Shown: piece after piece, positions 16,108 through 17,806 of the stretch
Position numbering within the stretch: the stretch's first letter is position 1
How the letters are laid out: each line of letters opens with the position of its first letter
Assembly (NCBI GenBank): GCA_021826965.1
Contig: JAKAYA010000001.1
Coordinates: forward strand, 1 to 64,000
DNA: 64,000 nucleotides
Reading direction: 5' to 3'
Source: Nitrospirota bacterium
GTDB taxonomy: Bacteria > Nitrospirota > Leptospirillia > Leptospirillales > Leptospirillaceae
Translations under genes and position numbers: made by a program
Notes under the pieces: generated by a model
Seen by the model: the letters and a program-made list of their open reading frames with translations, nothing else
Databases searched by the model: none
What the model was told of the DNA's origin: nothing

Positions 16108-16135
16108 TTATCGGAACCCGTGTCTAAAAACTTTA
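16108..16135 (-). promoter_or_regulatory. Putative sigma-28 (FliA) promoter of flagellin 1
   Basis: Minus strand TAAAGTTT-N12-TCCGATAA (consensus TAAAGTTT-N11-GCCGATAA); overlaps the end of fliW. Confidence 0.6.
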
Positions 16136-16564
16136 ACGGTTTTCCTGCTCTTCCAGCAGAGGGAACCGCAACCAGTCTTCTTCTTCGAAAAGAACCATCT
16201 GACGCCCGGACCTGTCCGGCATCCGGACAACAAGCGGCCCTTGAAGGTTGGCCGTCATCGAGTCGGCCGAAAGCATCGTCACGATCACGAGAGAGAGAAT
16301 GTCCCGCCCCTGGAAAAACGGATCGTTGAGAGAAGCCTTCACCCTCTCCCGGTATCCGGTGACCAGATTGTCGGGATCCATGACCACAAAGGCGAGAGAC
16401 GGGTCGTCCAGAGACTGCAGCCAGTAAAAAATGTTCGGGTCTCCGGTTTCCAAAAGATAGAAGCGGCAGGCCTGGGGAAAGCCCGGAAGACCCTCGGGAA
16501 AATGGAGGATCTTTTCGGGATCGACGGGGATCCGCCCAAATCGGGTCGTCTGAAAGTCGTTCAC
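16133..16564 (-). CDS. fliW: Flagellar assembly factor FliW
   Basis: RFGRIPVDPEKILHFPEGLPGFPQACRFYLLE...FYWLQSLDDPSLAFVVMDP. Confidence 0.95.
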   Translation of the reverse strand: MNDFQTTRFGRIPVDPEKILHFPEGLPGFPQACRFYLLETGDPNIFYWLQSLDDPSLAFVVMDPDNLVTGYRERVKASLNDPFFQGRDILSLVIVTMLSADSMTANLQGPLVVRMPDRSGRQMVLFEEEDWLRFPLLEEQENR

Positions 16565-16842
16565 TTTTTCGTCCCCCCGTTTCCGGATTCGTCCTTCTGT
16601 CGGGGAAGTGTCCCCGAAGAAGAAAATTTCCGGACAAGGATTTCCATCTGATCCGGCGTCACCGTTGTCGCTTTTCTGTTCTCTTCCATGATTTTCTCCC
16701 AGACCTCATCCCGGTGGATGGACAGGTCGGCAGGGGCTTCGATCCCTAGCCGCACCTGGGACCCCTTGACCTCGAGCACGACGATCCGGATATTGTCGCC
16801 CACCTTGATGCCTTCTCCGGTTTTTCTCGTCAGGATTAAAAT
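16561..16842 (-). CDS. csrA: Carbon storage regulator CsrA, apparently with an ATT start codon
   Basis: Minus strand AAGGAGGTCTGAC-ATT-TTA-ATC-CTG-ACG-AGA-AAA-ACC-GGA-GAA-GGC-ATC-AAG-GTG-GGC-GAC encodes (M)LILTRKTGEGIKVGDNIRIVVLEVKGSQVRLGIEAP, the canonical CsrA N-terminus. The ORF track begins at the internal GTG (16803) and truncates strand beta-1. Confidence 0.9.
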   Translation of the reverse strand: MLILTRKTGEGIKVGDNIRIVVLEVKGSQVRLGIEAPADLSIHRDEVWEKIMEENRKATTVTPDQMEILVRKFSSSGTLPRQKDESGNGGTKK

Positions 16843-16867
16843 GTCAGACCTCCTTGTCCACTGCGTG

Positions 16868-17806
16868 TCAGGAAAAAAGAACGTTCTGCGTGTTCCGGAG
16901 GATGTCCCGGGAAGCCTTCGTCGACAGGGCGAGAAAGTTCTGGTTCAGCGCCAGCTTGGATACAGCTTTCGGAATATCGACATCTTCGTTCTGGCTTTTC
17001 AGGGTTTTCTGGCTGATGGTGTATTTTTCGAGACGGTTGACTGTCGTTCGGATGGCGCGCTCACGGGTACCAAGAACAGCCGCCCGCTCCGTCACAAAAT
17101 GGATCGCCCTGTCCAGTTCGTCGATGGAACGTGAGATTTCAGGCTGGTTGTTCGCCAGAAGGCCCACCAGGAATCGACGCATGACCGGAAAGGGCTTGTC
17201 TCCGAAAGGATCCGACGCGCTGTCTCCCAAGATCCGGTCTCCGGCTTCTGTCACCGGCATCAGACCCGCTTCGCGCTGTCTCGGGGAAAATCCCTGCTGG
17301 ACCGTCTCTTCCCGATGATTGCCTTCATAGACGACAGAGCCGGGATTCAGTCGGGGATCCGTGAAATGGAACGGAGGACGGGTCACGTTCGTCCCGGAAA
17401 ACAGGTACTGCTCTCCGGCCTTCGTATTGGCCAGAGAGACCATCTGTTCAAGTGTCCGTTTCATTTCCTGGGCACCGACCCGACGGTCCTCCGACGTCAT
17501 CGTGTCGTTGGCCATGCGGATCGCCATCCCTTTCGCGCGGATCAGGAGCGTTCCCACCTGATCCAGGATGCTTTCCATCAGCTTCAGCCGATTCGCCCCT
17601 TCCCGGGCGTTTTCAATGATCCTGCGGGTAACCGACAGGTTGCGGTTGATCCTTAAAGATTCTCCCATCCTTCCGGGGGCATCGCCCGGAGTTTCAAACT
17701 GTTTTCCGGAAGAAATCTGCCGATCGACGTCGTAGAGGTTGTCGACAGCATTGTCATGCGAGGCGATCACCTCCCGGTTGGTCATGAGACCTGTCACGCG
17801 GATCAT
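16868..17806 (-). CDS. flgL: Flagellar hook-associated protein 3 FlgL
   Basis: MIRVTGLMTNREVIASHDNAVDNLYDVDRQISSGKQFETPGDAPGRM; flagellin-like ends; position after flgK. Confidence 0.9.
   Translation of the reverse strand: MIRVTGLMTNREVIASHDNAVDNLYDVDRQISSGKQFETPGDAPGRMGESLRINRNLSVTRRIIENAREGANRLKLMESILDQVGTLLIRAKGMAIRMANDTMTSEDRRVGAQEMKRTLEQMVSLANTKAGEQYLFSGTNVTRPPFHFTDPRLNPGSVVYEGNHREETVQQGFSPRQREAGLMPVTEAGDRILGDSASDPFGDKPFPVMRRFLVGLLANNQPEISRSIDELDRAIHFVTERAAVLGTRERAIRTTVNRLEKYTISQKTLKSQNEDVDIPKAVSKLALNQNFLALSTKASRDILRNTQNVLFS

Follow-up and report, generated by a model that had tools for sequence, protein, structure and literature searches.

A conserved ATT start codon of csrA in the Leptospirillaceae and its probable role as a translational brake

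The csrA gene of the Leptospirillaceae, which encodes a regulator of flagella and carbon storage, begins with ATT, a very rare start, and comparison of its start codons across the family indicates that this start is real and conserved. The gene was studied in a 64,000-nt stretch of a Nitrospirota genome (the window; contig JAKAYA010000001.1, positions 1 to 64,000), for which the original prediction had placed the csrA start at an ATT. Alignment of the starts in relatives bears this out, with ATT in 16 of 19 family genomes, ATA in one (G008), ATG in two (G010 and G017) and ATC in none. AUU is a weak start codon against which IF3 discriminates in E. coli. Why would a family keep such a codon at the head of a regulator? 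Probably because the AUU acts as a putatively IF3-sensitive brake that holds CsrA at or below the level of FliW.

The csrA start in the window

The gene and the signals around its start are as follows.

16561 to 16842, minus strand: csrA, 93 codons, start ATT at 16842-16840, stop TGA at 16563-16561
16849 to 16855, minus strand: Shine-Dalgarno sequence (SD) AAGGAGG of csrA, 6-nt spacer to the ATT
16801 to 16803, minus strand: in-frame GTG, codon 14 of csrA, picked by a mechanical ORF caller and rejected here as the start

At the csrA start the minus strand reads ...CAAGGAGGTCTGAC-ATT-TTA-ATC-CTG-ACG-AGA-AAA.... Numbered from the ATT, residues 2-52 match the CsrA family PF02599 with 79 bits (E 2e-22, cut-off 27 bits), and this CsrA domain has an intact first strand, β1 (x-L-I-L-T-R), as in the CsrA/RsmA family. 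The near-perfect SD that had been noted 6 nt before the ATT is confirmed and extends to an eight-base match, AAGGAGGT (AAGGAGG and the next T). How unusual is such a match? A 464-kb sample of the window genome, taken in stretches and holding 324 gene 5' ends, has an eight-base match near a canonical start in only five of the 324 genes. No ATG, GTG or TTG occurs in frame in the 34 open codons upstream of the ATT, which extends the earlier observation on this point. Single-sequence folds of the start region gave no obvious shared hairpin over the csrA SD or start.

Start codons across the family and beyond

The family set consisted of 21 Leptospirillaceae genomes in five genera, 19 of them with csrA. 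An isoleucine codon, ATT or ATA, is kept as the start at SD spacing in 17 of the 19; the spacing between SD and start is 5-9 within the family. All 19 genomes keep the xLILTRKxGE N-terminus of CsrA. Across codons 2-12 the encoded protein is nearly constant and the codons vary synonymously (four codons for Leu-2, five for Arg-6, four each for Gly-9 and Gly-11), which indicates that this stretch is translated and that initiation precedes codon 2. The nearby isoleucine codons are mostly ATC (codon 3 in 16/19 and codon 12 in 17/19), a codon never found at position 1. The ATT of G009 and G003 is preceded, one codon ahead, by an in-frame stop, leaving almost no space for another start; G003 is a single-contig assembly. 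The two species with ATG, G010 and G017, are sisters inside genus g3 (tree support 98/97), and their ATG is most simply explained as a single regain.

Could the ATT be an ATG misread in sequencing or assembly, or could the true start be the downstream GTG at 16803? The mechanical ORF caller chooses this GTG, from the view of a single genome alone, and the relatives leave both readings with practically no probability. An ATT found in sixteen family genomes rules out a sequencing error. The GTG is unique to the window genome, its relatives carrying ATC or ATT there, and a start at this position would delete β1, as had been pointed out, a strand that is conserved in protein sequence. Where the csrA of relatives has a canonical codon, the first one is at position 18-25. 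Upstream, no canonical start exists in 18 of the 19 genomes, and the ATG found five codons upstream in G002 is absent from its relatives.

Initiation at a different non-canonical codon, for example the CTG at codon 4, is very improbable. Codon 4 is indeed CTG in 18 of the 19 genomes, but CTG is the most used leucine codon here, and one relative has CTC instead. About 15 nt separate the SD from this CTG, with no SD properly placed for it, and the ATG of G010 and G017 sits exactly at position 1. The ATT thus stands as the start.

The assembly of the window is a draft (107 contigs, 89% complete). On a separate contig it carries a second csrA, which encodes a 94% identical protein, also begins with ATT and lies in the same flgL-csrA-fliW-flagellin order; this second cluster is either a duplicate or belongs to a related strain that was co-binned.

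How far does the ATT start reach beyond the family? In other families of the phylum (n=40) csrA starts with ATG in 30 cases, TTG in six and GTG in four. A degenerate pattern for csrA starting with ATT, ATC or ATA, applied to 396 genomes of the phylum, matched csrA only in the Leptospirillaceae, and its nine further matches are not CsrA. The narrower pattern x-L-[IVM]-L-T-R-K-x-G-E, applied to 84,980 species, gave csrA matches only from the Leptospirillaceae lineage; outside the phylum it covers this N-terminus and not csrA genes with others (SRK, TRR). In the literature searched, no report on the csrA start in Leptospirillum was found.

The flagellar cluster and a translational brake

Three neighbours of csrA matter for its possible role.

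16868 to 17806, minus strand: flgL-like gene (hook-filament junction protein), with Flagellin_N and Flagellin_C domains
16133 to 16564, minus strand: fliW, GTG start, 4-nt overlap with the csrA stop (GTGA), Pfam FliW match of 95 bits
15135 to 15962, minus strand: flagellin gene downstream of fliW, ATG start, SD AAGGAGGG

The flgL-like gene lies directly upstream on the same strand, 25 nt from the ATT, and csrA adjoins the fliW and flagellin genes in the order flgL-csrA-fliW-flagellin, as in a FliW-CsrA module. From this location, the brake would most likely serve the balance between CsrA and FliW, holding down CsrA relative to FliW and flagellin within a FliW-CsrA homeostasis module. The AUU would be read as fMet by the ordinary initiator tRNA, with the upstream SD positioning initiation there. 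Discrimination by IF3 would then impose a fixed brake on CsrA synthesis, so that CsrA would rise no higher than its antagonist FliW and the flagellin mRNA would not be over-repressed. The genome encodes an initiator tRNA-Met(CAU) with the GGG/CCC anticodon stem, and a search for the anticodon arm GGG-CT-NNN-AA-CCC found only this normal CAT initiator, leaving no candidate for an unusual one. It also has an intact infC, whose product IF3 retains R99, R131 and K110 (E. coli numbering). The low yield of CsrA, its sensitivity to IF3 and the purpose of the ATT are inferred; for low CsrA and an IF3 response, both part of the original prediction, analogy with E. coli infC and pcnB and S. aureus cvfC1 and ccpN makes the inference a reasonable one.

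Is a brake needed to explain the codon? The ATT could be real yet functionally near neutral, fixed in the family's ancestor, with the SD already yielding enough CsrA. In the non-fused clade each of the seven loci has an SD of 7-8 bases ahead of the ATT, and ATT or ATC starts in other family genes suggest that such starts are tolerated. In genus g3, however, the csrA SD drops to 4-5 bases and the ATT is still kept, so a strong SD offsetting the ATT is not universal. Moreover, codon 1 is a single mutation away from ATG and stays non-ATG while nearby synonymous sites vary widely, with one ATG regain in 19 genomes, a pattern that points to selection for weak initiation. A near-neutral ATT is therefore unlikely, and the brake is the better reading. 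The use of ATG in two species indicates that the brake is not essential. Because the window fliW overlaps csrA, it may be coupled to csrA translation, in which case the ATT could lower FliW too and leave the ratio unchanged.

Genus g3 presents a different arrangement. Here csrA and fliW are joined in one reading frame of ~230 codons in every genome with a long enough locus (L014, L016, L022-L027, L029, L030, L032 and L033, with the csrA start near locus position 1501), and one 233-residue g3 protein contains both the CsrA and the FliW Pfam domains. Inside the fusion the ATG or GTG start of FliW is retained together with an SD-like sequence. Weak initiation of the fusion, combined with stronger internal initiation of FliW, could hold FliW in excess. 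A CsrA-FliW fusion was not found in the literature searched.

Other isoleucine-codon starts and known systems

csrA is not the only family gene with such a start. infC begins with ATT in the window genome and in genus g3, and with ATC in G001, G003, G004, G005 and G009 (L035-L055), so isoleucine-codon starts are in use in the family; for infC this is expected from its known biology. A strict scan of the window genome for an SD followed by ATT gave 20 sites versus 23 for a reversed-pattern control, which means that ATT starts are not common. Two further SD-ATT sites look like real starts. In nearly all family genomes a yggT-like gene (G000:C51:53547-53780, minus strand, L107; family loci L108-L126) has an SD followed by ATT or ATC, and in genus g4 it has ATG; the copy in the window genome overlaps the end of a proC-like frame located upstream. 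An outer-membrane-like protein of 174 residues with a signal-peptide-like N-terminus is encoded at G000:C51:100177-100698, plus strand (L127; L128-L139 in relatives), and its gene has AAGGAG at constant spacing ahead of ATC or ATT in thirteen genomes. Both names come from inspection of the sequences, not from a family search. A further candidate, a PBP-like gene lacking a canonical start close to its SD, was dropped, as the coding sequence of a relative continues upstream. Might infC, csrA, the yggT-like and outer-membrane-like genes, and perhaps more, form an IF3-dependent translational regulon? The idea is tentative, with the odds against it; if true, it would link the level of an initiation factor to motility and envelope genes.

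Very few bacterial genes are known to carry a conserved AUU start. Its presence throughout a family on a global post-transcriptional regulator, with infC alike, gives a natural example in which the use of start-codon identity as an evolved brake, by a plausible mechanism, can easily be tested. There is a practical side as well: gene callers restricted to ATG, GTG and TTG would shorten CsrA throughout the family and lose its RNA-binding strand.

How does csrA compare with known systems? E. coli infC and pcnB initiate at AUU (Butler 1986; Binns and Masters 2002, as cited in PMC13009471). They resemble csrA in having an AUU after an SD and a product held low, and the infC of the Leptospirillaceae likewise starts with ATT or ATC. 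In contrast, the AUU-start genes named in the literature searched do not include csrA, which would add a further gene to the infC/pcnB class, whose members are limited in translation, if its putative limitation holds. In S. aureus, conserved starts are found at cvfC1 (AUU), ccpN (AUA) and infC (AUA), and AUU/AUA reporters reach ~10% of the AUG output, a share that for ccpN rises to as much as 30% in rich medium (PMC13009471). Conserved AUU/AUA starts with an extended SD are common to both cases, and ccpN, like csrA, is a regulator. The differences are the genes and phylum concerned, the weak SD of genus g3 and a csrA start assigned by sequence comparison. For the cluster, the closest likeness is the FliW-CsrA-flagellin module of B. 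subtilis, where csrA and fliW likewise overlap as neighbours near flagellin. In that module stoichiometry is important: FliW and the CsrA dimer are present at near 1:1, and motility responds to small changes in CsrA (PMC6529632). In B. subtilis, fliW lies upstream, with csrA translation coupled to fliW (PMC6529632), whereas in the Leptospirillaceae csrA comes first and starts with ATT, and in genus g3 the two genes share one reading frame.
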